A stretch of 64,000 nucleotides of DNA from Roseovarius sp. SCSIO 43702 (GTDB taxonomy: Bacteria > Pseudomonadota > Alphaproteobacteria > Rhodobacterales > Rhodobacteraceae): positions 2,068,501 through 2,132,500 of the forward strand of contig NZ_CP080623.1 in NCBI RefSeq assembly GCF_019599045.1, in the 5' to 3' direction. The notes beneath the pieces are model-generated. The model saw nothing but the letters and a program-made list of their open reading frames with translations. It had not been told where the DNA came from and searched no databases. Shown here piece after piece: positions 8,196 through 45,678 of this stretch. How positions within the stretch are numbered: the stretch's first letter is position 1; each line of letters begins with the position of its first letter. The position numbers and the translations under genes were made by a program.

Positions 8196-8200
8196 CATGA

Positions 8201-32502: not shown

Positions 32503-32577
32503 TCCGGCGTAGCTCAGCGGTAGAGCAGTTGACTGTTAATCAATTGGTCGTAGGTTCGATCCCTACCGCCGGAGCCA
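32503..32577 (+). tRNA. tRNA-Asn (anticodon GTT), integration target
   Basis: TCCGGCG pairs with CGCCGGA in the acceptor stem, the D arm is TAGCTCAGCGGTAGAGCA, and the loop CTGTTAA gives anticodon GTT for Asn. CCA is encoded. The last 47 bases are repeated at 41334-41380, so this gene is the attachment site of the 8.8-kb element that follows. The gene stays intact because the incoming element restores the 3' end. Confidence 0.97.
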
Positions 32578-32579
32578 AA
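32531..32579 (+). repeat. attL, 49-bp direct repeat within tRNA-Asn
   Basis: Bases 32531-32579 are identical to 41334-41382. The repeat covers the anticodon arm to the CCA end of tRNA-Asn plus two A's. Identity stops right outside at both ends, as expected for the two products of site-specific integration. Confidence 0.95.
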
Positions 32580-32615
32580 AATCCCAAAGAAAGCAATAAG
32601 TTAGCTTAAACCGCA

Positions 32616-32810
32616 TCAAGCGGTCTTTGGCCCAATTGGCTTCTGGGGAACGCTGGGGGAACAGGTCGGCCCGCGATGCCTCTTCCGTGGCCCGCGCCAT
32701 TGTTCGCGCGGGTTCCGCCCGTTTTTGTGCAGGGTCAAACCTAAATTGTTGCGGTTTATGGCAGGTAGGCTTGGGCCGCCGGTCCCCACATGGGCCCGCC
32801 AGAGTTTCAC
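32616..32810 (-). CDS. Small unknown protein with AHVGTGG motif
   Basis: A 64-codon frame starts at a GTG behind AGGGGG and begins MKLWRAHVGTGGPSL. A very similar segment (KVYSAHIGTGGHTL) lies in a minus-strand frame between the capsid and terminase genes at about 33550-33590. The two differ partly at third codon positions, which suggests selection on protein. The rest is Arg/Lys/Pro-rich and runs over the GGGGAAC repeats near attL, so the 3' end may not be coding. No function is known. Confidence 0.4.
   Translation of the reverse strand: MKLWRAHVGTGGPSLPAINRNNLGLTLHKNGRNPREQWRGPRKRHRGPTCSPSVPQKPIGPKTA
32645..32662. promoter_or_regulatory. Two GGGGAAC repeats near attL
   Basis: GGGGAAC occurs at 32645-32651 and 32656-32662, 11 bases apart. 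The same heptamer occurs four more times within 62 bases near the opposite end of the element. Placement close to both att sites suggests binding sites for the integrase or excision factor. Confidence 0.5.
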
Positions 32811-33016
32811 CGGCCCCCTATCACTGTCGCCGCGCGCCTTGGGTTTCCAGCCGCATCACGTAGCTTGCGCGCCTCGTGGATTTCGTCGCGGCGCAGTCCA
32901 AGGTCGGCGGCGGTGGCGGGAACCTCGTTGCCATTCCCAACGAGGTCAGATCGCGAACCGCTTTGCCCGACCTCCCCCCGCTCCTGCGCGGCGTCGTATT
33001 CATCGGCCAGCCGCAT
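32807..33016 (-). CDS. Small unknown phage-type protein
   Basis: A 69-residue hydrophilic product (MRLADEYDAAQERGEVGQ, later DLGLRRDEIHEARKLRD). It reads like a helical regulatory or adaptor protein. It follows the small terminase on the same strand after 32 bases and overlaps the next small frame by four bases, so it belongs to the same transcript. The frame is open further upstream into terS, so the true start could lie a few codons earlier. No family is assigned. Confidence 0.55.
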   Translation of the reverse strand: MRLADEYDAAQERGEVGQSGSRSDLVGNGNEVPATAADLGLRRDEIHEARKLRDAAGNPRRAATVIGGR

Positions 33017-33048
33017 CTCGGCGCGGGCGGCGGGCGGCAGGTGGCCGG

Positions 33049-33513
33049 TCAGCTGAAATAGTCCAAAGCATCGAAAGGGTTTTCTTCCGCAGGGTTGCGC
33101 GCGCTCACCTTCGCGCGCGTTGCCGGGGTCAATCCGAATTCCGACAACAGGCTTTGCGCATGGCGCATCGCCTCATTGCGCATCGCCACCTCGGGCCGGG
33201 CGCGCACCAGCTTGTCGCCGCTGGTCGCCGTGGTGCAGTAGGTGCGGCCCGCATCCTCGATAACTGCCGTGCAGATTTCGATTTCTTCCAACCGGCTCGC
33301 CAACAGCGCCAGCGCCGCCTGGTCGTCAGGCGATGCGATCCCCATGCCTAGAAGCGTAGCCGACAACTGCGCGAAGATTTCCGCCGCGCGTTCGCTCAGC
33401 CATTCGGACGGTTCCGCCGTGCCGATATTCGCGGGCGGTGCGTCCGGGTTCATCCGGTCGGGCCGGGCGGTTCCGGCGATGATTTTCAGGTGATCCGGTG
33501 TTCGTTTTGCCAT
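33049..33513 (-). CDS. Phage small terminase subunit (P27 family)
   Basis: A 154-residue protein whose opening (MAKRTPDHLKIIAGTARPDR) matches the P27-type small terminase, with a helical body (AAEIFAQLSATLLGMGIASP, then DDQAALALLASRLEEIE) typical of that family. Small terminases recognise the packaging site and load the large terminase. A near-perfect AAGGAGGT ribosome-binding site precedes the ATG. There is no large terminase in the element. In phage satellites such a protein diverts a helper phage's packaging motor to satellite DNA, and I infer the same here. Confidence 0.82.
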   Translation of the reverse strand: MAKRTPDHLKIIAGTARPDRMNPDAPPANIGTAEPSEWLSERAAEIFAQLSATLLGMGIASPDDQAALALLASRLEEIEICTAVIEDAGRTYCTTATSGDKLVRARPEVAMRNEAMRHAQSLLSEFGLTPATRAKVSARNPAEENPFDALDYFS

Positions 33514-33798
33514 TGCCCGAAAACCTCCTTCGATGTGACGGCGTAAGAAACAAGGTGTGGCCGCCGGTCCCGATATGGGCGCTGTAGACTTTTGCCGCCG
33601 GGGGTGGGGAAGGCGCGAACGCCTCCCCCTCGACGCTGGTGACGCCGCGCCCGGCCATAAAGGACACCGGGCCGCGCCTGTCGGGGTTTTGCGACACTCT
33701 CCGACTTGCCGGGTTGCTTTGCCGCGAATGCGGAAGATGCAGCGGGCGCAACCTGCCCTGTCTGGTGAAGGCCTGGGTCATGCCCCGGCCCTCTTGGA
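33514..33798. other. Spacer between capsid and terminase genes, with possible micro-gene
   Basis: This 285-base stretch has a minus-strand frame opening at the ATG at 33781 (MTQAFTRQGRLRP) behind GAGGG. It contains the segment KVYSAHIGTGGHTLFL and continues into terS until 33326. The overlap of almost 190 bases with terS argues against a full-length product. A short product or a decayed gene is possible. Confidence 0.35.
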
Positions 33799-34983
33799 TC
33801 AAGTCGCCGGATGTTCCAGCAGCTTGATCGCGTTGCTGTCCATGACATGCCCGCCGACGCGGTGATGCACATAGAACCGCACCCAGCCGGGCCGGGTGTA
33901 GGGGTCGCGCAGCGTGCGCATTCCCGTCCGGTCAACGATCAGATAACCGCGCGACCAGTTGCCGAAGGCGACGGAAACGTTGCTCGCCCCGATGCCCGGC
34001 ATTTCCTCCGCCTCGGCCACCGGATAGCCCAGCAGGGTCGGCGGCGCATCTGCCGAAAGGCTCTCGATCCAAAGCGGGCGCCCGTCAGTGTCCTTCAACC
34101 GCCGGATCGCCGCTGCTGTGGTGCGGCTCATGAGCCATGCGCATTCCCCCCGGACACGGTAGGGCGTGCGCAGCGCCGTCATGAGGTTCACCAGGTCGTC
34201 AACCTCGATTGCCGCCGCTGCCTGCGCGGGAACGGTCTGCAACGTGCCGAAGGGGCGCGTGTCATCGTCCGTAGCGGCCTGCGGCGCGGTCAGGAAGCCT
34301 TCGGGCTTGTCCACTCCGTCGCCGTTCACGAAAGCCCCGGCTTCCTGCAAGGCAAACTCGCTGGCGATATTCTCATTCAACCAGGTTTCAAGGTCGAATT
34401 GCGAATCTTCCAGCACCCAGGTTGTCGCCTCCGCATAGCAGAACAGTTCCCCCATGGGCGGTTTGATTTCGCCCATTGCCGGGGTCTGGGTCACGGTGCG
34501 CGGGTCCGTTTCGGCGGCCCAGCCCGACGACGCCCCGCGAAGCCCGACGATCTTGGAAAAGTCGCCGCTGGTCGCGGTCTCGACCGATGCAAGGCGGCGA
34601 AGCGGGTTCACATCAAGCATCTGGTCGAGGATCACGCGCGAGATTTGCCCCGGCACGCTTGCCCCGCCGTCCTGGCTCGATCCGGTCTGCATGGACGCCT
34701 GCGGCTTCATGCCGTCGCTCATGGTGCCATTGCGCAGGAAGTCGGTGAATTGCGATGCTGCCGAAGGCGACAAGCCCCGCGAATGGGTCGGCCCCGCCGC
34801 GCTGATGGACATTGCCGCCAGCCGGGCGTTGGCGTCATCCGCCGCTGCGCGCAGATCGGCCATTTCGGCCTTGCTGGACGCCTTGAACGCCTGCCAGTCG
34901 GTGTTGAGGTCTTGAAGAAGGGATGCCACGTCGCCGCCTTGCGCGCGAACGGACTGAATCCCACGGAATTTTGCGTGTTTCAT
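33799..34983 (-). CDS. HK97-fold major capsid protein
   Basis: A 394-residue protein of the HK97 capsid family. The N-terminal 90 residues form a helical scaffold-like region (VASLLQDLNTDWQAFKASSK). The shell domain follows, with DGGASVPGQISRVILDQMLD, PLRRLASVETATSGDFSKIV, the E-loop/P-domain segment ETWLNENIASEFALQEAGAF and a C-terminal VRFYVHHRVGG. The ATG at 34983 has GAGGT seven bases upstream; an open frame continues upstream but lacks a capsid match. No prohead protease gene is nearby, so the scaffold region either stays attached or is removed by a helper-phage protease. Confidence 0.88.
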   Translation of the reverse strand: MKHAKFRGIQSVRAQGGDVASLLQDLNTDWQAFKASSKAEMADLRAAADDANARLAAMSISAAGPTHSRGLSPSAASQFTDFLRNGTMSDGMKPQASMQTGSSQDGGASVPGQISRVILDQMLDVNPLRRLASVETATSGDFSKIVGLRGASSGWAAETDPRTVTQTPAMGEIKPPMGELFCYAEATTWVLEDSQFDLETWLNENIASEFALQEAGAFVNGDGVDKPEGFLTAPQAATDDDTRPFGTLQTVPAQAAAAIEVDDLVNLMTALRTPYRVRGECAWLMSRTTAAAIRRLKDTDGRPLWIESLSADAPPTLLGYPVAEAEEMPGIGASNVSVAFGNWSRGYLIVDRTGMRTLRDPYTRPGWVRFYVHHRVGGHVMDSNAIKLLEHPAT

Positions 34984-35159
34984 TTGAACACCTCGTGTCA
35001 TGCCCCGAGGGGCGATTTCGATTTTGGGATATGTGCGCAGCGTCTCGCGTGCGGGTTCCGGGCGGGTCCGGGCGAAACGGAAAGCAGCGTCGCGCGTGCT
35101 TGCGTCTCGGGCGACGGGCGCAGCGTCGTGCAATGCGCCGGTCACGGTATGATGATACC

Positions 35160-35396
35160 TCATTGCAGCCCGCCGCACAAGGCTTCGCCGCGCTCGACTT
35201 CATCGGCCATGTCGCGCAGCCATTCCGCCGCAGCCACCGGCCCGCCTATGTGCTGCGCCAGCGTCACGCCCACCGCCAGGAAGGCGACGGTGATCTGGTG
35301 ATCGGTCATCGCCCCGCCTTGGCGGATGCTCTCGGCGGTCTCGGTCAGCTTTTGAAAAAGGTGGTCGCGGATTTCATCTCGGGTTGCCGTGGTCAT
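35160..35396 (-). CDS. Unknown 78-residue protein upstream of the capsid gene
   Basis: A small helical protein (MTTATRDEIRDHLFQKLTET, then WLRDMADEVERGEAL) with AAGGAA seven bases before its ATG. It sits between the origin-like repeat and the capsid gene on the same strand. No family is recognised. The position before a capsid gene would suit a morphogenesis or size-determination factor, but nothing in the sequence shows this. Confidence 0.6.
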   Translation of the reverse strand: MTTATRDEIRDHLFQKLTETAESIRQGGAMTDHQITVAFLAVGVTLAQHIGGPVAAAEWLRDMADEVERGEALCGGLQ

Positions 35397-35452
35397 GTCA
35401 GGTTCCTTTTGTGGTGGTGGTTTCGTGCCATGCGGGCGGCGATATGACGGAT

Positions 35453-35538
35453 ATGACGCTTCGCCCTATATCGGACGTATGCGCGCGCGCATGTGCGCGC
35501 GTGCGCGCGTATACGGTGGATAAGGGGCGAAGCGTCAT
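35453..35538. repeat. Origin-like inverted repeat with alternating GC core
   Basis: ATGACGCTTCGCCC at 35453-35466 is repeated in inverse orientation at 35525-35538. Each arm has one more copy of the ATGACG core (left at 35444-35449, right inverted at 35541-35546). The 58-base centre contains about 30 bases of alternating purine-pyrimidine (GCGCGC, GTGCGC), a sequence type that opens or forms Z-DNA easily. It lies just past the primase-helicase stop codon, where satellite replication origins are often found. A transcription terminator or regulator site are alternatives. Confidence 0.5.
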
Positions 35539-35547
35539 AAGCGTCAT

Positions 35548-37848
35548 TCATCGGGTTTTAAGTCCTATGAAGCCCCGGCCATGCGGGCGGCGATGATCCT
35601 GAAAGCCGCGCGATTTCAATTCCTTGCGCAGCGTGTGGAGCGTCCAGGCGTGAAGCCCCTGCCGTTCGCACCAGAATTTGAAACGGTCGTGCAAGTCGGT
35701 CGTCGTCACGAAACCACCCGGATCGGTCACGGTCTCGTCGATCAGGAATTGCCCCAGCGTGTCTTCGTCATCCATGTATTCGGTGGATGCCGCCGCCACC
35801 TTGGCGGGCACGTCCAGGCCGCGCTCCTGCCATTGCAGCGCGCCCTCGATAGCCCAGCGCAGGATTTCCGGCCCCTCGGCCATCAGCTTGTCGGGCAGGC
35901 TCTTGTCGCGCCGCTCGGGCGGGATGGTGACAAGGAACGGCACCAGCACCACGCGGGCGCGGATCGCTTCATCAACGCCTCTGAAAGACGGCTGATTGTT
36001 CCCGGCAATCATCAGCGTCAGTTGCGGGTCGAAGTCGAAGAAGTCGCCGCGCATGAAGCGGGCGGTCATGCGGTCGCCGCCGGTCAAATCCTTGATCGTG
36101 CTTTCATCCCAGGTCTTGCCCACCGGCAATTCGCTGCCCGCCACCAACCGCGCGCCCTGCAACCCGGCAAGCCCGGTGGAATGCTTTTCAACCGCGCTGT
36201 TGAGGAAGGTTTCAGCCGCCGCGCGCCGGGCGTAATCGGCCCAGATATGGGTCAGGGTGTTCAGGAAAACCGATTTGCCGTTGCGGCCCGTGCCGTAGAG
36301 AAACAGCAACTTGTGTTCGGTGGTCAGCCCGGTCAGCGCATAGCCCGCCGCCCGCTGCATGAACGCCACCAGGTCGGCGTCGTCGTCGAATATCTCGTGC
36401 AGGAAGGTCAGCCAGCGTTCCGGCCTCGATCCGGGCGCGGCGGGCGCGCAGGCGGTCGCCTTGGTGATCATGTCGCGCCGGTCGGCGGTGCGCAGGTGCC
36501 CGGTGCGCAGATCCACCGTGCCGCCCGGCGTGCCCAGCAGCAGGCGGTTTTCGTCGAAGGCGTCGGCGCGTGCCACGCTCGCCGGGTTCGATCTGGCGAG
36601 ACTTTCGACGCTGGCAACCGTGATCTTGTTGCGCAGCCACCGCGATTGATCCTTGCCCCAGGCGCGCAGCTTGTCAGCTTCCTTGTCGTCGAGCGCAGCG
36701 GCCTTGCGTTCGGCCCATCCTGTCAAATCCTCGGCCCGGTCGCGTAGATAGGTGCGGGTGCGGGTCAGGTGCTCCAGGCGGTCGTCGATCTGCCAGCGCG
36801 TGCCTTCCCAAAACAACCACTTGCCCCAGGTGGCAACGTGCCGCGCGTCCCGGTCGAAACTGCGCGCGCCCAAATCGGTCGCAAGCGCGTCGTGGCTCAG
36901 GTCGAGTTCGTCGGGCGTGTTCGGGCGGGGCTGTCCATCGGCTGTTGCCGCGCGCGCTCCGGTGGTCCGCTCTTTCGGCCCTCGCGGCGTCTGCGAGCCC
37001 GCCTGAAAGCCGCTGTCGATGGTCGCGACAATCTCCCCCGGTTCCAGCCCGATGCCCGCTCCGGCGGCGCTCAGCCGCGCCTTGACGGTATCTTCGGCCA
37101 GCCCGCCCCCTGCCACGATCTGCGCCAGATTGAAGGCGGCGCTATTCAGCGCGCCATTGCGCTTGCCCTCGGGCGCGGCCAGCAGCTTGGCGAGTTCGTC
37201 TTGCAACGCCTTGTCGGCCCATGCCGATGCGCCGCCGGTGTCGATCTGGACACGCGCGGCGGGCGCGGCGCGCTCCGACAACTTCTTGCGGCGCGGCAGA
37301 AGGTCGAGGATCCACTGCGGCGCGGTGGCCACCTCGAAAAGGCCGGGCGGGTTCTTCCAGCGATAGGGATTGTCCGAGCCGGGCTTGATCGAAGGCGCGG
37401 CCAGCACCATCCCGCCATGCCCGCGCACATCAACGCCGGGCGCAATCTCGCCTTCGCAGGTCTTCGGGTCAAAGTCCCCCGGATACCGGAAATAGACGTG
37501 CCAGCCGCCGCTCGGGCTGGTGGCCTCGATGGTATGCGGCAGGTCGCCATGCGCCTTGATCTTTTCCAGCAGCCAACCGATGCCGTCCACGTTGTTCTTG
37601 CGGTCAAGGTCCAGAACGACAAGCCCGCTTTCCTGTGTGGCGATTCCGATATTCGCGTGCGGATGCTTGGCGAAAAGCGCGGCGACAAGATCGGGGTCAT
37701 TGGTCGCGCCCCAGCGGCGGCCATCGTGATCCTTTGCGCCTTCGTATGACTGCTTCTTTCCAGGCGGTGCCGGAAACACATGCCAGCCGCGCGCCGCGTA
37801 TTCGAGCGCAGCGTCGGCGATGGTCGGGAAGCTGTCCTGCATGTTCAT
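35548..37848 (-). CDS. Primase-polymerase / SF3 helicase (satellite replication protein)
   Basis: A 766-residue protein with two enzymatic parts. Residues 1-185 are a bifunctional primase-polymerase domain: FAKHPHANIGIATQESGLVV, then LDLDRKN with the metal-binding Asp80 and Asp82, then SPSGGWHVYFRYP. Residues 430-740 are a D5-type N-terminal region followed by a superfamily 3 helicase, with Walker A GTGRNGKS at 519-526, a Walker B-like acid region in ARLVAGSELPVGK and the sensor LMIAGNNQPSF. It should start and drive replication of the element after excision. Its ATG overlaps the stop of the preceding micro-gene by one base. Confidence 0.9.
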   Translation of the reverse strand: MNMQDSFPTIADAALEYAARGWHVFPAPPGKKQSYEGAKDHDGRRWGATNDPDLVAALFAKHPHANIGIATQESGLVVLDLDRKNNVDGIGWLLEKIKAHGDLPHTIEATSPSGGWHVYFRYPGDFDPKTCEGEIAPGVDVRGHGGMVLAAPSIKPGSDNPYRWKNPPGLFEVATAPQWILDLLPRRKKLSERAAPAARVQIDTGGASAWADKALQDELAKLLAAPEGKRNGALNSAAFNLAQIVAGGGLAEDTVKARLSAAGAGIGLEPGEIVATIDSGFQAGSQTPRGPKERTTGARAATADGQPRPNTPDELDLSHDALATDLGARSFDRDARHVATWGKWLFWEGTRWQIDDRLEHLTRTRTYLRDRAEDLTGWAERKAAALDDKEADKLRAWGKDQSRWLRNKITVASVESLARSNPASVARADAFDENRLLLGTPGGTVDLRTGHLRTADRRDMITKATACAPAAPGSRPERWLTFLHEIFDDDADLVAFMQRAAGYALTGLTTEHKLLFLYGTGRNGKSVFLNTLTHIWADYARRAAAETFLNSAVEKHSTGLAGLQGARLVAGSELPVGKTWDESTIKDLTGGDRMTARFMRGDFFDFDPQLTLMIAGNNQPSFRGVDEAIRARVVLVPFLVTIPPERRDKSLPDKLMAEGPEILRWAIEGALQWQERGLDVPAKVAAASTEYMDDEDTLGQFLIDETVTDPGGFVTTTDLHDRFKFWCERQGLHAWTLHTLRKELKSRGFQDHRRPHGRGFIGLKTR

Positions 37849-37943
37849 CAGCTAACCCCCCAGATCAGCGCGCAAAGCGCGGATGCCTGCGCCTCGGTCA
37901 TGCCGTGAACGCGCATCAGGAAGCGGATTTGAAGCTGTCTCAT
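37848..37943 (-). CDS. 31-residue micro-protein before the primase
   Basis: MRQLQIRFLMRVHGMTEAQA followed by SALCALIWGVS. Its ATG overlaps the stop of the gene before it by four bases (ATGA), and its stop overlaps the primase start by one base (TGATG). Such tight packing on both sides is strong evidence for translation, although the product is very short. One amphipathic helix is predicted by eye. Function unknown. Confidence 0.5.
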   Translation of the reverse strand: MRQLQIRFLMRVHGMTEAQASALCALIWGVS

Positions 37944-38182
37944 ACCGCGCCCCCCATCAGTTCCAGCGGGTCGTATTCGCCTGCGCCCTCGACGCGCGCC
38001 AAGGTGCGGCCCCGGTCGTCTTTCAGGACACGGTGCGGATCGCAGGTGCAAATCCGCTCGCGCGTGTAGATCGCGCAACCCGGATCGTGCTGGAATTCGA
38101 CGCGAAAGAGTTTGCCGCGCTTGATGTGTTTACGCTGCGCGGCGGCCCACGCCCGGCGGGCCTGCCGTTTCGATTTTGTCAT
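37940..38182 (-). CDS. Small basic protein with Cys pair
   Basis: An 80-residue protein starting MTKSKRQARRAWAAAQRKHI, with a strongly basic N-terminus and a central CAIYTRERICTCDPH that could bind a metal. GAGGT lies about 7 bases before the ATG at 38182. Its length, charge and position before the primase would suit a nucleic-acid-binding accessory protein, but no family is recognised. Confidence 0.6.
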   Translation of the reverse strand: MTKSKRQARRAWAAAQRKHIKRGKLFRVEFQHDPGCAIYTRERICTCDPHRVLKDDRGRTLARVEGAGEYDPLELMGGAV

Positions 38183-38293
38183 GCTCGTTACCTCGGGAAT
38201 TGCCGAAAGCAACGGGCGGTGCTATAAACGGTCTGACGCCTGCCAAAGCATCATCCCCAACTAACCCCCCGCCGTCGCTTTCGGTGGGGGTTT

Positions 38294-38683
38294 CTATTTG
38301 TTCAACATCGCGCGCAGGCGTTGACGCGCCTCGCGCATGTTGTTCTCGCTCGCCTGCTGCGCGTTCACCGCCGCCCGGATGATCCGGTGCAGGTGGATTG
38401 CGTCGGTGCTGTCGAAGTCGGGATTTGCCAGCGCGGTGCAGGCGACTTCCAGGACGGACGCAACGAAGCCTTGGGCGTCGTCAATGTCGATCCTCTCGTC
38501 ATTGCGGATCAGGCACGCATTCGCCGCTTTCGCCGCCTCCACCGGATCGCGCGGCAGATCGGCCATCTGCTCAACCTCGCGCATGTTGGTGGCGTCGATC
38601 GAAAGCAACTCGAAGTCGCGCCGCGAAAGCTGTTTCAGCGTCTCGACGGCTTCAGCGGGCAGGTCGGAAAGGCGGATGGTCAT
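38294..38683 (-). CDS. Unknown 129-residue protein of the satellite
   Basis: A helical acidic protein (MTIRLSDLPAEAVETLKQLS, later RIIRAAVNAQQASENNMREA). The stop of the gene before it overlaps its ATG by four bases, so it is part of the coupled chain running from alpA. A 110-base gap follows before the next gene. No family recognised. Confidence 0.6.
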   Translation of the reverse strand: MTIRLSDLPAEAVETLKQLSRRDFELLSIDATNMREVEQMADLPRDPVEAAKAANACLIRNDERIDIDDAQGFVASVLEVACTALANPDFDSTDAIHLHRIIRAAVNAQQASENNMREARQRLRAMLNK

Positions 38684-38928
38684 GCCGTGCCCTCCCCCTG
38701 CCGGGCGATGCTCATCACCTCGGCCCCGCCGTTGCGGCGGCGGGCTTCGGCGTCCAGTTCATCGGCGTGTTGCTGATACCACTCGCCCATGTCGCGGATC
38801 GCGTCGGCAATCGCGGTCACGGCCTCGGGGGTGTGCTCCAGGCGCTGCAACAGGAATTGCAGTTGAACGCCGGGATATTCGCCTGCGCCTTCCAGCGTGC
38901 GGCGAACGATTTGCTTTTCCCACGTCAT
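38680..38928 (-). CDS. Unknown 82-residue protein of the satellite
   Basis: A small helical protein (MTWEKQIVRRTLEGAGEYPG, then EHTPEAVTAIADAIRDMGEW). The segment LEGAGEYPGVQLQ resembles VEGAGEYDPLELM at the end of the 80-residue protein downstream, suggesting that both share a short motif of common origin. It is coupled to its neighbours by ATGA overlaps on both sides. Function unknown. Confidence 0.6.
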   Translation of the reverse strand: MTWEKQIVRRTLEGAGEYPGVQLQFLLQRLEHTPEAVTAIADAIRDMGEWYQQHADELDAEARRRNGGAEVMSIARQGEGTA

Positions 38929-39134
38929 GCCGCCACCTCGCCATTGCTAAGGCCGGTGGCGTAGATGTTGGCGACCAGCCAGTTGTCGCACGGCGCGATC
39001 CAACCGGCCTTTCCCGCCGGATTCACATGCACATAGATAATCGAGCGGTCGAAGCCGTCTTTATGGGTGGTGTAGTCCAGCGTGCCGCCGCACGGCAGGC
39101 TGCGCGGAAAGTTCGGTGCGGAATAGGTGCTCAT
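38925..39134 (-). CDS. Unknown 69-residue protein of the satellite
   Basis: MSTYSAPNFPRSLPCGGTLD begins a small soluble protein rich in aromatic residues (SIIYVHVNPAGKAGWIAPCD). The ATG at 39134 overlaps the alpA stop by four bases; an upstream ATG in the same frame lies inside alpA. The stop overlaps the next ATG. No family recognised. Confidence 0.6.
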   Translation of the reverse strand: MSTYSAPNFPRSLPCGGTLDYTTHKDGFDRSIIYVHVNPAGKAGWIAPCDNWLVANIYATGLSNGEVAA

Positions 39135-39385
39135 GCCGCCACCTCGCGCGCTTCCAGCCATGCGATGATTTCGGCCTCGCGCCAGTAGCGGCGGCGTCCG
39201 ATGTAGATCGGGCGCGGGAAGTCCAGGGCGGGATTGTCAAGCCAGCGCCACAAGGTCATGTCGCTGATACCGCCGCACATCTGGCGAACGGTTGCGGCCT
39301 GAATCCGGCGGTGGGGGTTGCGGTCGTGTTCGGGGTCGGTCGCCCCGGCGTGACGCGCAGTCGCGGTTGCGGTTTGGGTGTTCAT
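39131..39385 (-). CDS. AlpA-like helix-turn-helix regulator
   Basis: An 84-residue DNA-binding protein. The stretch RQMCGGISDMTLWRWLDNP is a MerR/excisionase-type helix-turn-helix, and FPRPIYIGRRRYWREAEIIA is the wing and recognition tail typical of AlpA. In P4-like satellites and PICIs, AlpA switches on excision and late genes. A 95-base gap upstream can hold its own promoter. It begins a run of ATGA-coupled genes, so it may control the whole replication cluster. Confidence 0.8.
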   Translation of the reverse strand: MNTQTATATARHAGATDPEHDRNPHRRIQAATVRQMCGGISDMTLWRWLDNPALDFPRPIYIGRRRYWREAEIIAWLEAREVAA

Positions 39386-39480
39386 GGTGCCACGTCCTTT
39401 CGTGTTAGAACCGTGGCTATCTATTGGTCACATCTTTCGGCGCTGGTCCAAAGAATAGGGGTGCGAAAAACTAATTCGTT

Positions 39481-39900
39481 TTATGGACCATGGCGTTTTA
39501 GCACTCCCTCAAACCATTCCAGTTCTTCCATTTGCTCTCGGTAAGCCCTAAGCGATTCAAGGCATTTGCTTCTCCCGTTGCCCTTCACGCCAAATTTGCG
39601 CTGCACCTGATAAACCGCTTCATCGACGGTTTTTTTGTCATCATCGACAATACGAACCATTTCTCTGCCAACCGCCCAATCCGGCCCCTTCGGTCGTCCG
39701 GTGCATTTGTTCCTCAACTCCATCCTGAACCTGTCAGGTTTTCCGCTTGGACGAATTGACGCCGCTAGCATTTTTAAGAACAGTTCGGACGGCGCGCCAG
39801 TTTCCAAAACATCGGCAATACGTTCGGCCCGCGCTCGCATATCGAGCGGTTCATCAACGGATTCGACCAGCAGAACCCAATCAGGCTTCTTTTCCTTCAT
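39481..39900 (-). CDS. Unknown protein after the integrase
   Basis: A 139-residue charged protein (MKEKKPDWVLLVESVDEPLD) with a middle part rich in basic residues and a C-terminal helix (SLRAYREQMEELEWFEGVLK). Its ATG overlaps the integrase stop by four bases, so it is made together with the integrase. It could be an excision or immunity factor by position, but no family is recognised. Confidence 0.6.
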   Translation of the reverse strand: MKEKKPDWVLLVESVDEPLDMRARAERIADVLETGAPSELFLKMLAASIRPSGKPDRFRMELRNKCTGRPKGPDWAVGREMVRIVDDDKKTVDEAVYQVQRKFGVKGNGRSKCLESLRAYREQMEELEWFEGVLKRHGP

Positions 39901-41147
39901 CGCGCCGCCTCGCCAATCCGCACGACGTTATCCGCCGTGCCTTCCACCAGATCACCGACAAGGCGCGCCCATGCGTCCAGCGCATCGCGCTTTTCGTCGG
40001 CATAGTCGTGGCGCTGATAAACCGACACGATCCCGCCTGCGGTGCCGCTCACATGGTTCAGCACGGCCTCGGTGACGCGCACCGGAATGCCCAGCCGCGC
40101 CATGCCGGTTGCCGCCGTGCGGCGCAGATCGTGAAACGTCCAGTGCGGGATTTCCACCGGCTCGCCCGCCTCGTCGCTGGCAATCTCTGCCATGCGTTCG
40201 GCAATGTGATTCCGGCCCTTGTGATAGCCCTGTAGCGCGCTTCTGCCGTTCGTGGTGAAGATGTAGCCCGCATCGCTCTTGAGGCGCTCCACGGCCCCCA
40301 GAACGTCCCGCGCGGCCCCTGACAACGGCACGTCATGCGCGCGCCCGTTCTTCGTGCGGTCGGCGGTCAAGTGCCACAGATCGTCGCTCACCTCGCGGTC
40401 AGTCATGTTGACAACCTCGCCAAGCCGTTGCCCGGTCAGCAACAGCATTTTGCCAAGATGCCCCCACGGCTGGCCCTCGATTGTGCAGGCTTCCCAGAAC
40501 CACCGGATTTCATCATCCGACAACACGCGGTCGCGGCTCTTTTCCTTTGCCGCCGGTTTCACGCCCATTGCGGGCGACTGGTCGATTATATCGCGCTCCA
40601 CACACCAGCTTAGAAACTTGTTTAGATAGGCCCGAACCCGGTTTGCGGTCACAACCCGCCCGCTATCCGCGATCCCGTCCAGCAGGTCGATCACGTCGCG
40701 CTTGGCAATGTCGTGAATGTCCCGCTCGCCCCAAACCGCGACCACATGCCGGTTCAACTCGCGCTTGACGGTTTCGCCGGATTTCAGTGTGGACAGGTGC
40801 CGCTTGCCGAATTGCTCCACCAGGGTCTTGATCTTGTCGCGGCCCGATTGCTGAACCTCGACGCGCGCCGCCTTTTCGGCCTCTCTCTCGCCTGCCGGGT
40901 CTTTACCATCCTGCGCCGCGATCAGGGCTTCACTGGCGCGCGCTCTGGCCTCCGCAAGCGATAGCAGGGGATATTTGCCCAGCGTCATCCGCCGGTGCTT
41001 TTCCCCGAACCGATAGCGGACCTGCCAGGCCTTCCGCCCGCTCGGCTGCACGATCAGATAAAGCCCCGTCATCAGGGTATCCGGCACCTCCTGTCGCTTG
41101 TCTGTCGCCTTCCACTTTTCAACGCCGGTTGCCGTCAGCTTCGCCAT
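39897..41147 (-). CDS. int: P4-type tyrosine integrase
   Basis: A 416-residue integrase. The N-terminal DUF4102-like arm-binding domain (PDTLMTGLYLIVQPSGRKAW, then RMTLGKYPLLSLAEAR) identifies the P4 group. The catalytic domain has the first Arg in LLLTGQRLGEVVNM, the His-x-x-Arg box in TFHDLRRTAATGM, the second His in LNHVSG and the nucleophile Tyr in SVYQRHDY. The ATG at 41147 follows GAGGGGG. It lies beside the right att copy, as expected, and would insert the element into tRNA-Asn. Confidence 0.95.
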   Translation of the reverse strand: MAKLTATGVEKWKATDKRQEVPDTLMTGLYLIVQPSGRKAWQVRYRFGEKHRRMTLGKYPLLSLAEARARASEALIAAQDGKDPAGEREAEKAARVEVQQSGRDKIKTLVEQFGKRHLSTLKSGETVKRELNRHVVAVWGERDIHDIAKRDVIDLLDGIADSGRVVTANRVRAYLNKFLSWCVERDIIDQSPAMGVKPAAKEKSRDRVLSDDEIRWFWEACTIEGQPWGHLGKMLLLTGQRLGEVVNMTDREVSDDLWHLTADRTKNGRAHDVPLSGAARDVLGAVERLKSDAGYIFTTNGRSALQGYHKGRNHIAERMAEIASDEAGEPVEIPHWTFHDLRRTAATGMARLGIPVRVTEAVLNHVSGTAGGIVSVYQRHDYADEKRDALDAWARLVGDLVEGTADNVVRIGEAAR

Positions 41148-41166
41148 GTTCGCCCCCTCAAAATCT

Positions 41167-41228
41167 GTTCCCCAATCGGTTCTGGGGAACATTCTGGGGA
41201 ACAGAAACGGTGTTTTCTACTGTTCCCC
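41167..41228. promoter_or_regulatory. Four GGGGAAC/GTTCCCC repeats upstream of the integrase
   Basis: The heptamer lies at 41167-41173 (inverse), 41184-41190, 41196-41202 and 41222-41228 (inverse). The inverse and direct copies could form small hairpins or pairs of protein-binding sites. They lie between the integrase start and attR and match the two copies near attL. Arm-type integrase sites or autoregulatory operators are likely. Confidence 0.55.
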
Positions 41229-41333
41229 ACGCAAGCAAACATTGCCGAACATATGGCGCATACGCAAGTAAAATATGGGAAATATGGCAAGCGATAGTTT
41301 TACATATTTAGGCCACGATACCCCCTAAATATC

Positions 41334-41382
41334 GACTGTTAATCAATTGGTCGTAGGTTCGATCCCTACCGCCGGAGCCAAA
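41334..41382 (+). repeat. attR, 49-bp copy of the tRNA-Asn 3' end
   Basis: It is identical to 32531-32579 and carries the anticodon arm, T arm and CCA end of tRNA-Asn but no 5' half, so it is not a functional gene. It marks the right end of the satellite and may also be the left end of a second island, since a new recombinase gene begins 176 bases further on. Confidence 0.95.
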
Positions 41383-41438: not shown

Positions 41439-41486
41439 GTGCACGTGCACAAATTGGTGCACAAACAGGTGCACAAATGCGTGCAC
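41439..41486. repeat. 12-bp tandem repeats with GTGCAC cores
   Basis: The palindrome GTGCAC occurs at 41439, 41445, 41457, 41469 and 41481. The last four are exactly 12 bases apart, with units of the form GTGCACAAAYNG, though the unit at 41469 ends differently (GC). The array lies between the att copy and the start of the first recombinase gene. It could be a set of recombinase arm sites or an operator array. The frame through it (VHKLVHKQVHK) is not preceded by a good start. Confidence 0.75.
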
Positions 41487-41557
41487 GCCGACCCCCGCGC
41501 CCCGATCCGCGGCCGCGATTCCAAGATGCCCTGAAACCTGTTTCGGAGGCAGTTGCC

Positions 41558-43798
41558 ATGGCCGGAGTCGCACATACCCCCTACCTCGAAAAACGCCCCT
41601 CGGGCTTCTTTTTCCGCCGCCGGCTTCCGCGCGCGTTCCGGGAGATATCGAACCCTGGGCAGAAATCTGCCATCTGTCTCAGCCTGCGAACCGAGGTCCT
41701 CTTCGAAGCGAAGATCCTCGTCACGCGCCTGACGGCGCTCACGGACGCGGCCTTCGCGCTGACGACGGAGAGACCGATGGATCACTTGAGTGCGCAACAT
41801 GTCACGCTGCTGAGCGAACTGGCCCGGTTCCAGATCGCCGCCCACGAGGCCGCGCGGGCGATGGCTGATCCCCGCTCCGAGGTGGCTGCCAATTTCGCGG
41901 CAGAGGCCGAGCGCGCGAACCAGGACATGCTGCGCCGCGCGCTGGCGCTCGGCGATCGGTCCCCGGTCACTGATCCCCTGCGTGAGATGGCCAATCGCAT
42001 GGGCGTGACGCTGGACGAGAGCACCGCCGACTGGCGCGCGCTCGCGTTCGAGGCTCTGCGTGTGATGCTCGACGTGTCGCGCGAACGGGAAAAGCGCGAG
42101 GTGGGAACCTACGACGAGATGACGCCGATCTTCCGGTCGGTGATGGCGAGCCGGTCGGCCGCCCCGGCCGCCGCCCTGCCGGCAGTCGCGGCGCAGGCTG
42201 TGGCACCCGCTCTTGCCGTGCCGGCCGCCAGCGCGCCGACCGCGAGTCCCATGGCGGAGCCGGCCACGGCGACTGCCGCCGCGCCGGCCGAAATCGAGGT
42301 GGCGGCTCCTGCCCAGGCGCCCGCCGGGTCCTTCGCGGCCCCGGCCGCGAATGTGGACACACCGGCGGCAGCGCCGGAACCGCCTGCGGCGGCCTCAGCG
42401 AGCGTGCTCCGGAACACCGCGACCCGCGATGACGACACCGCGTTCCGGATTAAAATGCGCCCGCCGCTCCTCAAGAACATCGACCTGAGGGATCTCTCGC
42501 CCGGAATGCAGGAGATTCTGCACACCAAGCCACGCGGCATCACGCTTCTCGAAGGAATCAGGCTCATGAAGGAGCTCAAGACCGCCGGCTACGGCGAAGA
42601 TTTCTCCCAGAAACAAACGGCCGACGCCGATGCCGGCCAGCGATGGATCAAGGACAGCACGAGCAAGGCCCGCTTCGCCGAAACCTACTGGGTCGAATTC
42701 GTCGGCGATGTCGCCTTCGAGCGCGTCGAGGAAGAGGCGATCCGGGATGCCATGAAGCTGCTGCCGCGGCTGCCGAACAAGCATTCCAAGGGAAAGGACA
42801 AGCTCCTTGCCAGGAACGGTTTCGCGGTCCTCGTGGACGATATCGATGCCGAAGAAGAGCGTGCGGAGAAGGACAACCTGAAGGCGCTCGAAGGCTGCAA
42901 AGGCATCACCGAGGCGGACCGGGAAAAGGCGGCTTTGGATGCACGCATCCCGCGTCTGCGCTCCGAAACCCGCGCAAAGCATCATCGCTTCATCAATTCG
43001 GTCGGCCGCATGCTCTTTGATCTGCAACTGATCGACAGCAACCCCTTCGCGATCTGTGCCGTCTCCAACGCCGACAAGAAACGTTGGCAGAAGATGGAGG
43101 AGAAACGCAAGCGGACCTATTGGGATGACCGGATCTACACCTTTCTGCGCTCGCCAGCCTTCCAGGGACCTTTCGCGGACCCCGGAGCGCCGCTCTACTG
43201 GATCCCGCTCATCGCGCGCCTGATGGGGTTGCGCGAAGAAGAGGCCTGCCAGCTCGGACCGGACGACTTCGGCTCCGTGCGCGGTATCCACTACCTCGAC
43301 GTGAAATGCATCGACGGCAACCGGGTGAAGACCGAAGAATCCCAGCGCCGCATTCCGGTTCATCCGATCCTGATCGAGCTCGGCCTCCTGAAGCTCGCCG
43401 AACTTCGCCGGAAGCAGGGCAAACATCGCCTTTTCCCCGACCTGACGCGCGGCAAAACCAAGGGGCGCTACTCCGAGAATTTCTCCAAGAAGTTCACCTA
43501 TTATCGTCAGACCAACAATTGCTACTGGCAGGGCCTTGATCTGCATGCCATGCGCACGTCGTTTAATTCGGACCTGATGAACCAGGACAAGTCCGACGCC
43601 TTCCGGTGCATCCTGATGGGCCATGAGGCGCCCGACACGGGAGCTCGCGACTATGATCAGGGCGTGCAGATGCAGAAGCTCCTGGAGCGTATCTGCGATG
43701 TCGAACTCGATGTTTCGATGATTGCCCGCCCGTTCGCTGACACGAAGCGCGCAAGACAGCGCGGCAATGTTATCGATCTCAGCAGCGTTGCCCGCTGA
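41558..43798 (+). CDS. Large tyrosine recombinase with Ala/Pro-rich linker
   Basis: A 746-residue protein. The N-terminus (TPYLEKRPSGFFFRRRLPRA) resembles the short N-terminal domain of integrases of the DUF6538 type. Residues about 195-295 are an Ala/Pro-rich linker, probably disordered. The C-terminal catalytic domain has the Arg in RLMGLREEEACQL, LDLHAMRTSFN as the second box and ILMGHEAP with Tyr in RDYDQG. GGAGG lies about 10 bases before the ATG at 41558. It is paralogous to the next gene in the segment LYWIPLIARLMGLREEE. Confidence 0.82.
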   Translation: MAGVAHTPYLEKRPSGFFFRRRLPRAFREISNPGQKSAICLSLRTEVLFEAKILVTRLTALTDAAFALTTERPMDHLSAQHVTLLSELARFQIAAHEAARAMADPRSEVAANFAAEAERANQDMLRRALALGDRSPVTDPLREMANRMGVTLDESTADWRALAFEALRVMLDVSREREKREVGTYDEMTPIFRSVMASRSAAPAAALPAVAAQAVAPALAVPAASAPTASPMAEPATATAAAPAEIEVAAPAQAPAGSFAAPAANVDTPAAAPEPPAAASASVLRNTATRDDDTAFRIKMRPPLLKNIDLRDLSPGMQEILHTKPRGITLLEGIRLMKELKTAGYGEDFSQKQTADADAGQRWIKDSTSKARFAETYWVEFVGDVAFERVEEEAIRDAMKLLPRLPNKHSKGKDKLLARNGFAVLVDDIDAEEERAEKDNLKALEGCKGITEADREKAALDARIPRLRSETRAKHHRFINSVGRMLFDLQLIDSNPFAICAVSNADKKRWQKMEEKRKRTYWDDRIYTFLRSPAFQGPFADPGAPLYWIPLIARLMGLREEEACQLGPDDFGSVRGIHYLDVKCIDGNRVKTEESQRRIPVHPILIELGLLKLAELRRKQGKHRLFPDLTRGKTKGRYSENFSKKFTYYRQTNNCYWQGLDLHAMRTSFNSDLMNQDKSDAFRCILMGHEAPDTGARDYDQGVQMQKLLERICDVELDVSMIARPFADTKRARQRGNVIDLSSVAR

Positions 43799-44002
43799 TC
43801 GCTCATTGCATTCCCTGCGCGCAAGTGCACCGCGCTATTCCGCGAATTGCAGGGGAGCGCCTTGGCGCTCTCTCAACACGTCCTGTTCACGCACGCGTGA
43901 TCAATTTGCGGACTCTTTCTTTGCAAAGGCTGATCTATGTCAACTCACGCCAAGAAATTCGGTGCATAGGGGGGCCATTCATATCTCAAAGAGACGCAGG
44001 AA
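43799..44002. other. Spacer between two recombinase genes
   Basis: These 204 bases have no convincing open frame. A weak inverted repeat (CCCTGC and GCAGGG) lies about 10-55 bases after the first recombinase stop and might act as a processing or termination site. Confidence 0.35.
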
Positions 44003-45226
44003 ATGCACGATATCTTCGCACCTCGCACCGCCTTCGCATCACTCCTGGTGGCTTCCTCGCGGCGTACGCCCCGATCCCTTCACGAAGCCGGGGATCTTTC
44101 GATCCAATCAAGAGCGGTTCTCGCCGGAGAGCGGCAGATCTGCCTCGAGGCCGCCTTCGACCTCTACATCGAGCTGAAGGCGCAGGGATATCGTCCTGGC
44201 AATCACCGGCTCGATGTGGCCCGTGGGCAGTCCTGGCGTCAACACAGTTCTGCAAGTACGGCCAGTGCCAAGCGCGTCTGGCAGCGGGTCTTGGGAAATC
44301 CGTTGTTCTTCGGCATCGAGCGGGCCGATGTCGCCCGCGCGCTGCAGGAAATTCGGAACCTGCCGAAATATCATGGAAAACACCAAGGCGGAGGTGATGC
44401 CGCCGATGAAAACGGCCGAATGGATCAAGACCCGTCTGCCCAAGCGCCCATCAGCGCCGCGACCTTTATGAGAATCGGTCGAACGGCGCGCCAGGTCGGC
44501 GATCTCCTGATTGATCTGGGTCTCGCAGTAGACAACCCCTTCGATCTCTGCAGCTGGTCGCTAACGGCGGAGGCTCACCTCCGGCGGCAGGATCAGCCAG
44601 GGAACCGGGCGCGCGATCTGCATGAGGTCGATGTCTACCTGTCCTTGCCGATCTTCCGTGGCATCATCGGGGAGGCTGGCGATCCGCTGTTCTGGGTGCC
44701 GCTCCTGATGCGGCTCGGCGGTTTGCGCCTCGGCGAAGCTGTCCATCTCGCGCCCGCCGATCTGCAGTATCGTGACGGCATACCGGTCATCTGCATTGCC
44801 TCCATTGATCGGGATGCGAAGACAGCCGGTTTTCGTCGGGAGGCTCCCGTAGCCCGGAGACTGCAGGATCTTGGCCTCATCGACCTGTTCGAACTGCGCC
44901 GGAAACAGAGGGAGGTGGTGCTGTTCCCGGAGTTATCGGAGCATCGGCCCAGGGCTGACATGGCGCGGTTCCGCAGGCATTTCGTCCGCTACTGCGCGGC
45001 GCATGGGATCAAAGCCTCGGCCCTGCATTTTAATGATTTCCGGAAGGCCTTGCATCGTCGGCTCCTTGAAATGGGCTGCCCGGTAGATGTCGCGCGGGTG
45101 GCCCTGGGTCACGTGGCGCGCGAGACGCAAGTTCCATTCCTCGACGACAACCTGCGCGCGGCGGTTTACGATGCGTTGGCCAAGGCAGGCGAGGATCTTC
45201 CTGACATTGTTGGCCCGTTTCAGTAA
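44003..45226 (+). CDS. Second tyrosine recombinase-like protein, paralogue of the first
   Basis: A 407-residue protein. LFWVPLLMRLGGLRLGEAVH aligns with the first recombinase and carries the box I Arg. ASALHFNDFRKALHRRLLEM supplies a His and Arg resembling box II, VALGHVARE the second His, and RAAVYDALAK a candidate nucleophile Tyr. The large N-terminal part of the paralogue is missing. Spacing in box II is unusual (HFNDFR), so activity is uncertain; it may be an accessory factor. AGGA lies just before the ATG, and a terminator-like hairpin follows. Confidence 0.7.
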   Translation: MHDIFAPRTAFASLLVASSRRTPRSLHEAGDLSIQSRAVLAGERQICLEAAFDLYIELKAQGYRPGNHRLDVARGQSWRQHSSASTASAKRVWQRVLGNPLFFGIERADVARALQEIRNLPKYHGKHQGGGDAADENGRMDQDPSAQAPISAATFMRIGRTARQVGDLLIDLGLAVDNPFDLCSWSLTAEAHLRRQDQPGNRARDLHEVDVYLSLPIFRGIIGEAGDPLFWVPLLMRLGGLRLGEAVHLAPADLQYRDGIPVICIASIDRDAKTAGFRREAPVARRLQDLGLIDLFELRRKQREVVLFPELSEHRPRADMARFRRHFVRYCAAHGIKASALHFNDFRKALHRRLLEMGCPVDVARVALGHVARETQVPFLDDNLRAAVYDALAKAGEDLPDIVGPFQ

Positions 45227-45678
45227 TCAGCGGCATTGCAAAGGCCCGGAATGAAGCTCGGGCTTTTCTTGCTATACCCCTGATCGATGCTCTCGGCGGC
45301 ACGTCGATGCTCCCGAACTTGCAGCATCTCGCGAAGGCCACGCGGATTGCAAAGACACTGGGTGATTTGATCGCCATGCATTATCAGAGCCCGTTGGTGA
45401 AGGCAGGCGGTCGCTTGGATTTGTCCGAGCGCGATGACGGGCTCTCGCGCCGATGAGCCGGGCATCGCGCTCGTTTGATGCTTCTTTCGATCTCGGCGCG
45501 CCTCGCCAGAATTGAAGCCTGTAGAACAATCCGAAAGTGATTGACGGAAGTTGAAGCAGCCCACGGAAAATGTTGATAGCGGGGCCATTCCATCCCGTGC
45601 GGGTGATGGTGCCCCGTGCTCAACACGCGACGGAAACAAGGGAAAACAAGGAAATCGGCGGCAGCCGGCAGAACGGGA
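45227..45678. other. 452-base region between convergent recombinase genes
   Basis: It holds a terminator-like hairpin (45243-45262) and, on the plus strand, a short frame ending at about 45456. That frame reads like decayed coding sequence (MLPNLQHLAKATRIAKTLGD, then LIAMHYQSPLVKAGGRLDL) but has no good ribosome-binding site. Nothing else is recognised. Confidence 0.4.
45243..45266 (+). terminator. Terminator-like hairpin after the second recombinase
   Basis: GCCCG at 45243-45247 pairs with CGGGC at 45258-45262 around a 10-base loop, followed by TTTT. It lies 17 bases after the stop codon at 45224-45226. The stem is short, so efficiency is uncertain. Confidence 0.45.

Follow-up and report, generated by a model that had tools for sequence, protein, structure and literature searches.

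The window analysed here is a 64-kb stretch (64,000 nucleotides) of contig NZ_CP080623.1 from Roseovarius sp. SCSIO 43702 (positions 2,068,501 to 2,132,500, forward strand), and it carries an 8.8-kb element inserted in a tRNA-Asn gene at window positions 32531-41382. This element is almost certainly an integrated phage satellite. The best overall explanation, to which we assign a probability of roughly 0.78, is a satellite of the phage-inducible chromosomal island (PICI) type that is induced by a helper phage, uses its own small terminase subunit (TerS) and its own cos packaging site, and travels in heads that its own HK97-type major capsid protein (MCP) forms or helps to form. What can be read from the DNA are the boundaries, the gene set, a cos-like site, the layout of a putative origin, signs of purifying selection, and a minimal gene set that recurs in relatives.

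Boundaries and insertion site

The insertion site and the repeats that flank the element are as follows.

32503..32577, plus strand: tRNA-Asn(gtt), the integration site (ARAGORN)
32531..32579, plus strand: 49-bp att repeat, tRNA side, 100% identical to 41334-41382
41334..41382, plus strand: 49-bp att repeat, integrase side, 100% identical to 32531-32579

The repeat comprises the last 47 bases of tRNA-Asn and two further bases, its copies are spaced 8803 bp apart, and there is no third copy anywhere within the 64-kb window. A preliminary description, made from the letters of this DNA, had reported a 49-bp identical direct repeat of the tRNA 3' end around 8.8 kb, which we could confirm from the coordinates and from empty sites elsewhere. 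The extent that it gave, 32503..41382, was correct at its right end; the left edge is instead 32531, since the 5' part of the tRNA gene takes up 32503-32530.

A match to the 701 bases ending just past tRNA-Asn was present in 80 of 83 same-genus genomes. At two loci from this genus (L335 and L336), the tRNA end is single-copy and DNA homology to the window breaks off at 32581 and 32584, respectively, i.e., at the repeat. These are empty integration sites, and with homology ending at the repeat in both, a chance origin of the repeat is excluded. Conversely, at least 14 of the 83 genomes have a second copy of the tRNA-Asn 3' end, 91-100% identical and 9-22 kb away (counted on the same contig, at distances up to 25 kb). 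The guanine-plus-cytosine content of the element (63.5%) is nearly equal to that of the rest of the window (64.3%), and composition therefore says little.

Gene content

The open reading frames (ORFs) of the element, with their lengths in amino acids (aa) and their best family matches, are listed from the integrase end.

39897..41192, minus strand: tyrosine integrase, 431 aa (PF13356 1e-20, PF00589 1.7e-15, phrog_1 8e-66)
39481..39900, minus strand: 139-aa ORF (best Pfam/PHROG E=0.07, PADLOC none)
39131..39385, minus strand: AlpA-like regulator/excisionase, 84 aa (PF05930 6.9e-4, HTH_17 2.4e-4, phrog_66 2.7e-6)
38925..39161, minus strand: 78-aa ORF (no Pfam, PHROG or PADLOC match)
38680..38928, minus strand: 82-aa ORF, conserved in L214, L216 and L224
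38294..38683, minus strand: 129-aa ORF, conserved in L213, L216, L297 and L298 at 67-76% identity
37940..38212, minus strand: 90-aa ORF, conserved in L047, L216, L298 and L329
37848..38078, minus strand: 76-aa ORF overlapping the 90-aa ORF, conserved in some relatives (no family match)
35548..37848, minus strand: primase-helicase, 766 aa (PF09250 1.2e-38, PF08706 2.8e-21, phrog_1156 5e-140)
35160..35396, minus strand: 78-aa ORF between the predicted origin and the MCP gene, conserved in L047, L216, L223, L297 and L329
33799..34983, minus strand: HK97-type MCP, 394 aa (PF05065 1.4e-69, phrog_10 7e-70, PDB profile match 6tb9 1.4e-91)
33049..33513, minus strand: TerS of the P27 type, 154 aa (PF05119 4.7e-17, phrog_83 2.4e-25)
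32807..33016, minus strand: 69-aa ORF (similar pieces in L048, L214 and L309)

As the preliminary description had proposed, an integrase, an AlpA-like regulator, a primase-helicase and a small terminase were all found on one strand, the minus strand, by Pfam and PHROG searches. The recognised genes lie on this strand throughout, i.e., transcription would be unidirectional, and the order from the primase-helicase onwards is 78-aa ORF, MCP, cos and TerS. The HK97-type MCP is central to our reading of the element; the earlier account had named a capsid solely within a proposed check. The primase-helicase contains Prim-Pol, D5_N, DUF5906 and Pox_D5 domains. The AlpA-like protein, which is 87-92% identical in L213, L297 and L298, has a weak Pfam score for AlpA (19.9 bits versus a cut-off of 21), and its assignment is backed by phrog_66 and by the expected gene position.

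The proposed lack of tail, lysis and large terminase (TerL) genes was borne out. Queries for TerL, portal, protease, HNH and tape-measure proteins against 163 element frames (stop-to-stop, at least 30 aa) gave a best match of only E=0.015, and when frames of at least 40 aa were scanned in a further round, none matched at E<=1e-3. Lysis families were absent from the PHROG matches of 14 element ORFs, and the six window ORFs compared with PADLOC had no match to its defence genes. Among the relatives, a 247-aa ORF of L306 has weak matches to PADLOC LmuB (5e-5). Within the 69-aa ORF, a 46-bp stretch (32969-33014) is oddly conserved, being 91-93% identical to DNA of seven Bradyrhizobium plasmids.

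A TerS gene with a predicted cos site of its own

Two cos-like stretches were found near terS.

33519..33597, minus strand: predicted cos site (gapped profile of 30 TerL-bearing viral contigs, E=1.7e-5)
32773..32819, minus strand: second cos-like copy, left half only (77% repeat over 39 nt, D2)

The predicted cos site lies directly upstream of terS and reads GGCAAAAGTCT-(14 nt)-GGGACCGGCGG ... TTTCTTACGCCGTCACATC. An ungapped, iteratively trained cos matrix scored above 20 in 33 of the 38 viral contigs with enough upstream sequence; all but one of these 33 sites lay within about 115 nt of terS (32/33; L269 at 546), in the very contigs on which the matrix had been trained. A first gapped profile, made from 32 non-redundant regions, matched the window at E=1.2e-6 in a search of 38 sequences (722,390 bases). 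This profile included L255 (perhaps itself a satellite) and L269, both without a TerL match, and a second profile was therefore confined to 30 TerL-bearing contigs. Dropping the two weakened the E-values (window, 1.2e-6 to 1.7e-5) and left the ranking unchanged. With the 30-contig profile, the values for relatives included 5.9e-11 (L213), 2e-9 (L298) and 8.5e-8 (L311), and E was below 0.01 in 10 of the 15 MCP-bearing satellites described below (this element, L048, L049, L213, L216, L224, L298, L306, L307 and L311).

Two kinds of evidence had no part in the choice of profile seeds, namely a downstream landmark, TTTxTACGC..GTCAAAAT, and the ends of viral contigs. Among 41 viral contigs with an upstream end visible no more than 10 kb from terS, 19 end within 110 nt of the gene, nine of them at 47-57 nt (read by eye). 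The 41 do not include L246, whose stored stretch begins at contig base 493; L287, with its start inside terS, belongs to the 41 and not to the 19; L273 and L274 are possibly one phage. In the similar pairs L234/L233, L229/L265 and L257/L258, the contig end falls 13-14 nt past the start of the GACC core, again as read by eye. We take this preferred contig end near terS to be the probable virion end, i.e., cos.

Several observations weigh against this assignment. The ungapped matrix missed the window site, which was found by the gapped profile. The 30-contig profile gave no significant match in L047, L214, L297 and L329, which have other TerS types, and the match in L223 was borderline (E=0.01). 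For L306 and L049, the top match is placed upstream of the MCP gene and not of terS. Furthermore, the motif by which the seeds were picked had first come to notice in the window and its relatives, which makes the E-values optimistic and not fully independent. Taken together, we consider packaging through cos and TerS to be highly probable.

Among this element, L213, L223, L298 and L306, TerS is 78-91% alike, and the closest phage TerS of the set is 74-76% identical; other TerS types (phrog_83) occur in L297, L048, L047, L329 and L214. The protein collection contains 474 TerS homologues at E<=1e-3. The C-terminal end of TerS probably has a role in binding TerL. Satellites and related phages have a C-terminal NPFxxL motif in common, which fits a coupling of the satellite TerS to a helper TerL.

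The second cos-like copy, after terS, is not significant by itself (E=0.14 with the first profile, 2 with the 30-contig profile). L306 likewise has two cos-like matches around its MCP gene (E=1.9e-3 and 0.82), the extra copy lying before that gene at 7939-8012. As a speculation, exchange of cassettes at cos could have left these extra copies behind.

A predicted replication origin

35444..35547, minus strand: predicted replication origin (45-nt arms 35444-35488 and 35503-35547, 82% complementary, with paired TGACGCTT-type iterons)

Directly past the primase stop codon, there is an inverted repeat that consists of tandem TGACGCTT iterons, TATCCACCGTATACG and a GC-rich alternating stretch, followed by the mirror image. 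The same layout was seen in 11 of the 12 elements examined (this one and 10 of 11 relatives), and iteron alleles covary on the two sides, with GGTGACG/CGTCACC in L207 and GTGACGGTT/AACCGTCAC in L214. The exception is L213, where the inverted repeat that follows the primase gene is a different one and lacks the common iterons. In PICIs, according to the accessible text of PMC6092414, the initiator gene is followed directly on its 3' side by the origin, which has two sets of iterons around an AT-rich stretch. The layout found here matches that rule except for its centre, which is GC-rich and alternating in the window and AT-richer in L210, L214, L300 and L301.

Relatives and a tRNA-Asn hot spot

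Related loci (L numbers) were picked by eye from searches of genomes and viral contigs, and the set is not a census. The MCP query matched 155 of 198 family genomes at E<=1e-20, necessarily including many prophage and gene-transfer-agent capsids. The primase query matched 15 of 84 same-genus genomes at E<=1e-20 and 9 of 394 family genomes at E<=1e-100 (own genome included), and the TerS query matched 6 of 394 family and 4 of 84 genus genomes at E<=1e-25 (own included).

At least 15 loci have an MCP gene and no match to TerL, portal, protease or HNH: this element, L047, L048, L049, L213, L214, L216, L223, L224, L297, L298, L306, L307, L311 and L329. L325 is the L047 element and was counted once, and L255 was omitted because its MCP-cos-TerS set lies at a contig end, with TerL possible beyond. 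All 15 loci except L049 have TerS (14/15). Some TerL types escape the TerL and portal profiles (L207 and L210 have none by profile and a TerL by PHROGs); given this blindness, those types served as queries in a further scan of the 15 satellites. Ten complete satellites lie in tRNA genes (-Asn, -Arg, -Ser or -Thr) between perfect or near-perfect repeats 8.5-10.1 kb apart (L298, 8455 bp; this element, 8803; L307, 8959; L329, about 8960, with a 93% repeat; L047, 9018; L214, 9102; L297, 9139; L213, 9275; L306, 9572; L311, 10057). L223 and L224 are partial viral contigs, and no flanking repeat was seen for L048 and L216. L049, from a Rhizobiaceae metagenome-assembled genome, has MCP, a cos-like site and tRNA-Gln repeats with a spacing of 9432; no TerS was found in it. 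The gene order integrase-AlpA-primase-capsid-terS, for which the preliminary description had suggested looking in other genomes, holds in the relatives wherever those five genes were recognised. That description had also considered that close relatives might be complete prophages, or that portal, TerL or tail genes might belong to the element; the nearest relatives found are just as short and have tRNA repeats of their own, and the profile and query scans found no such gene in the element.

Where divergence could be measured, the ratios of nonsynonymous to synonymous substitution (dN/dS) were low. Against L297, the integrase gave dN 0.058 and dS 0.42 (dN/dS 0.14), the primase 0.043 and 0.38 (0.11), and AlpA a dN/dS of 0.16; TerS against L298 gave 0.08 and 0.89 (0.09), and MCP against L223 gave 0.306 and 1.18 (0.26), with many other MCP comparisons saturated. 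These values point to purifying selection on the genes of the element.

We considered whether the element could be a deletion remnant of an ordinary prophage, given that its genes are of phage type and that phages with a 74-76% identical TerS exist. Against such an origin, repeats and frames are intact, selection appears purifying, and the same minimal architecture is found at several tRNA genes. Moreover, the MCP gene precedes cos-TerS, whereas TerL follows terS in 71 loci (70 viral contigs and phage Kronos). The remnant explanation is thus largely refuted, and we regard it as very improbable.

The tRNA-Asn site is occupied in at least 14 genomes, and all of these sites were inspected (G274 in part). 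Five hold minimal satellites (this element, G279/L213, G215/L311, G245/L047=L325 and G248/L329), two hold capsid-forming PICIs (cf-PICIs; G238/L328 and G233/L331), and one holds a TerL-type element (G259/L324). Six other islands share the same site (G209, G211, G216, G217, G222 and G274; L326, L327, L330 and L332-L334), five of them with distant integrases.

The cf-PICIs at this site are complete and are relevant to a further explanation, in which the element is a reduced cf-PICI that descends from elements like L328, L331 or L302, has lost TerL, HNH, protease, adaptor and portal while keeping MCP and TerS, and is maybe partly disabled. L328 and L331 do have an integrase and AlpA related to those of this element together with a TerL-HNH-MCP-protease-portal set, and L302 has such a set and a primase that is 57% identical over residues 316-764; in all three, the module is situated at tRNA-Asn or close to it. 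However, the L302 MCP query matches the MCPs of L328 and L331, to which the window-type profile shows little or no match; the genes are ordered differently, as MCP-cos-TerS here and as TerL-HNH-MCP-protease-portal there; and 14 loci, with four or more MCP groups and low dN/dS where measurable, have the minimal form. Reduction from a cf-PICI is accordingly an improbable account of this element as it stands, and the element may descend from, or have undergone exchange with, such elements.

Other relatives differ in their late genes. L207, L210 and L324 combine TerL of another type with a related primase or integrase, which makes a third kind of late module; L210 also encodes a Gp13-like capsid protein (phrog_247). 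L208, a relative by its primase, has a late region (4392-9271) with an endolysin-like 656-aa protein and a phrog_5880 protein, and is perhaps a satellite of a different phage type. Tape-measure genes follow terS in L311 (7065-8840, phrog_9483 5e-83), L048 (12015-14231, phrog_1538 8e-30) and L224 (4481-5548, phrog_2854 7e-74); such satellites may alter or re-set the helper tail too. L255, part of a 49-kb viral contig, has an MCP-cos-TerS end, tail-like genes and an integrase-like ORF, and the contig also holds the TerL-bearing phage region L233. Either a satellite stands next to a phage there, or the assembly is chimaeric.

The capsid protein

The MCP genes do not follow the rest of the element. 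Compared with L297, the integrase is 90.5% and the primase 92.6% identical, and MCP is 34% identical; compared with L298, the integrase is 91%, the primase 83% and TerS 89% identical, and MCP is from another lineage. L213 has an MCP of 36% identity and a primase of 52% overall, of which the N-terminal 317 residues alone are well matched (85%). Across relatives in which MCP identity collapses, integrase identity is 80-91%, that of AlpA being as given above. By these comparisons, MCP is exchanged between elements whose integrases and primases are about 83-93% identical.

By best BLASTP match, the satellite MCPs fall into group A (this element, L047, L223 and L048; 58-83%), group B (L298, L224 and L214; 59-64%), group C (L306 and L307; 55%) and group D (L213, L297 and L216; 45%). 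For all 14 satellite MCPs compared, the nearest MCP in loci with TerL and portal is at most 50.5% identical, and in 11 of the 14 (exceptions L049, L213 and L311) the best match is another satellite. This is a best-match table and not a tree, L002 (a piece of L216) was omitted, and L329 is outside the comparison.

In the window MCP, about 105 residues stand ahead of the HK97 core, in a reading frame that is open from 35178. Its best solved relatives are gene-transfer-agent capsid proteins (Rcc01687, 6tb9 and 6tba). Gene-transfer-agent heads are T=3-derived. The N-terminal part of MCP has a median length of 123 in satellites versus 145 in loci with TerL and portal (14 versus 61 loci, with uncorrected ORF starts). 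An AlphaFold model of MCP, made with 16 sequences, had a mean predicted local distance difference test (pLDDT) score of 39.5 and was useless.

Based on the analogy with known satellites, we lean slightly towards the view that the element would use its own MCP to make small heads. Three points speak against it. The difference in N-terminal length is modest (one-sided p=0.028, two-sided 0.057). The N-terminal parts of the MCPs of L214, L224 and L298 are longer (150-190), contrary to a simple rule by which a short delta domain gives a small head. Finally, the MCP homologue Ccm of SaPIbov5 resizes helper heads and forms no capsids without helper MCP, as described in the accessible text of PMC5052747, and since Ccm needs helper MCP, an own shell is not implied for this element.

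An alternative is that the element fills full-size helper heads with concatemers of about four genomes, and that its MCP mainly poisons or resizes helper heads, i.e., interferes, without forming a shell of its own. Four copies of about 9.1 kb make about 37 kb, inside the 37.3-42.1 kb of long viral contigs with a related TerS (L232, L241, L247, L248, L253 and L275). There is precedent in the parts of the literature available to us: EcCICFT073 uses full-size heads (PMC6092414), phage-inducible chromosomal minimalist islands (PICMIs) do without capsid remodelling (PMC10803314), and Ccm interferes with the helper (PMC5052747). On the other hand, the predominance of satellite-to-satellite best matches suggests that satellites have long kept their own capsid genes, in which the HK97 core is complete. 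We regard packaging in full-size heads as doubtful, while noting that the size of the element does not separate it from small heads: by surface-volume scaling, the T=3 to T=7 capacity ratio is about 0.28, and about 9 kb fits either a T=3 head or four copies per full head.

Comparison with known satellites

The preliminary description had held that this gene set defines both PICIs and P4-like satellites. The PICI half of that statement stands. We found those features of Gram-negative PICIs that can be read from sequence, namely an integrase with a specific att site, an AlpA-family regulator, one-way transcription, an initiator gene followed by a predicted iteron origin, and no lysis, tail, portal or TerL gene. 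The P4 half does not hold. P4-like satellites have the hallmark genes Sid, Psu and Delta, and no such family was among the Pfam and PHROG matches of the element ORFs. Although the two share an integrase, an AlpA/Vis-like protein, a primase-helicase and cos, we do not class the element as P4-like because no P4 hallmark family matched and because integrase-AlpA-primase-terS does not define P4.

As far as the accessible text of PMC6092414 describes them, EcCICFT073 and PmCI172 have in common with this element the integrase, AlpA, a primase with an iteron origin directly 3', one-way transcription and a specific att site; terS is optional among them, and PmCI172 has an MCP homologue, as does the element. 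Compared by description, the element differs in its Rhodobacterales host, in the size of its kind (8.5-10 kb) and in a P27-type TerS that adjoins its own phage-type cos. With SaPIbov5, a cos-type Staphylococcus aureus pathogenicity island that encodes Ccm, it shares a phage-type cos, here by similarity only, and an HK97-fold MCP homologue as capsid gene in the absence of a portal (PMC5052747, in part). In SaPIbov4/5, the same source describes operon I, except for the 3' part of terS, as replaced by a cos-bearing region, whereas the element retains a complete TerS; SaPIbov5 also has an Stl-type regulator where the element has an AlpA-like one. In its working, the element would thus resemble a cos-PICI with a Ccm-like capsid gene.

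Like the cf-PICIs of PMC10690885, the element has its own MCP and TerS, and L328 and L331 share its site, integrase clade and AlpA. In the available portion of that account, cf-PICIs carry TerL, HNH, protease, portal and connectors; this complete head and packaging module was not found in the element. The PICMIs of Vibrio are likewise small satellites of marine bacteria, but are described in the accessible text of PMC10803314 as having no capsid-remodelling gene, whereas an MCP gene is present here.

A full-text literature search, in which most subscription papers were out of reach, returned no account of such elements in Rhodobacterales; the satellite hosts in the literature found were enterobacteria, Pasteurella, vibrios, staphylococci and Streptomyces. 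The host group, a complete TerS beside its own cos, exchangeable satellite MCPs, and the tape-measure genes of L311, L048 and L224 look new, as do one tRNA-Asn hot spot and related integrases common to minimal satellites and cf-PICIs.

Helper phage and proposed mechanism

A point that weighs against a helper-dependent satellite is that no helper was found: the prophages of the same genome (L031 and L033) carry a TerS only 33-36% identical and a different cos core. These two related HK97-type prophage regions (L031 12632-18292 and L033 12400-18642; 1.39-1.47 Mb of the genome) lie about 40 kb apart, have the order TerS-TerL-portal-MCP, and contain cos-like sites with E=2.8e-4 and 0.087 by the 30-contig profile. 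That either is the helper is possible and unproven, and we do not claim it, owing to the low TerS identity. Among cultured phages, TerS identity was below 60% in each of the 65 records that matched it, and none of 62 records with a DNA match covered 80% of the element, the 20 matches listed all covering the tRNA alone.

The cycle that we propose is likely, by analogy with EcCICFT073 and PmCI172 (PMC6092414) and SaPIbov5 (PMC5052747) as described in their accessible text, in its steps of induction by AlpA, excision, replication, cos cutting and packaging. The helper would be a cos-packaging phage of HK97 type whose terminase is of the P27 type, and which infects or gets induced. AlpA would then turn on the operon, and the integrase, with AlpA or a small ORF product as excisionase, would excise a circle at the tRNA-Asn repeat, which the primase-helicase would copy from the iteron origin. 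Satellite TerS would bind its own cos, join helper TerL and cut unit lengths. Satellite MCP may build a head on the helper portal, or co-build it with helper MCP, the protease and tail coming from the helper; about 9 kb would suit a head of about one-quarter of the capacity of a 37-42 kb helper, e.g., T=3 versus T=7.

Neighbouring DNA

Adjoining the outer att repeat is a recombinase-rich island (41477-51095) that is separate from the satellite. PHROGs matches identify four integrase-like genes in it, two on the plus strand (773 and 407 aa) and two on the minus strand (456 and 722 aa), and it also has a helix-turn-helix gene and a gene for a DUF3987 protein. Between this island and later genes lies an IS66-type transposase gene (54277-55455; PF03050 E=9e-99), which with adjoining small ORFs spans 54277-56667.

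Implications

Tentatively, and at somewhat less than even odds, we suggest that these elements form a distinct class of Rhodobacterales satellites with just two virion genes, a satellite-specific MCP and a TerS with its own cos, that use a helper portal to build a small, T=3-like shell of their own, and whose late modules are exchangeable cassettes at one hot spot. If so, minimal MCP-cos-TerS sets, TerL-type sets and full capsid-forming sets would all be carried on related integrase-AlpA-primase engines, and the family would link PICIs to cf-PICIs. The family supplies testable pieces in the form of candidate cos and origin sequences, a pairing of TerS with cos, and capsid genes that can be exchanged. 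It also raises the questions of the fewest virion genes with which a satellite can make its own head, and of whether minimal PICIs and cf-PICIs interconvert via cassette exchange at one tRNA site. The bacterial group concerned has a gene transfer agent that uses a homologous capsid protein.

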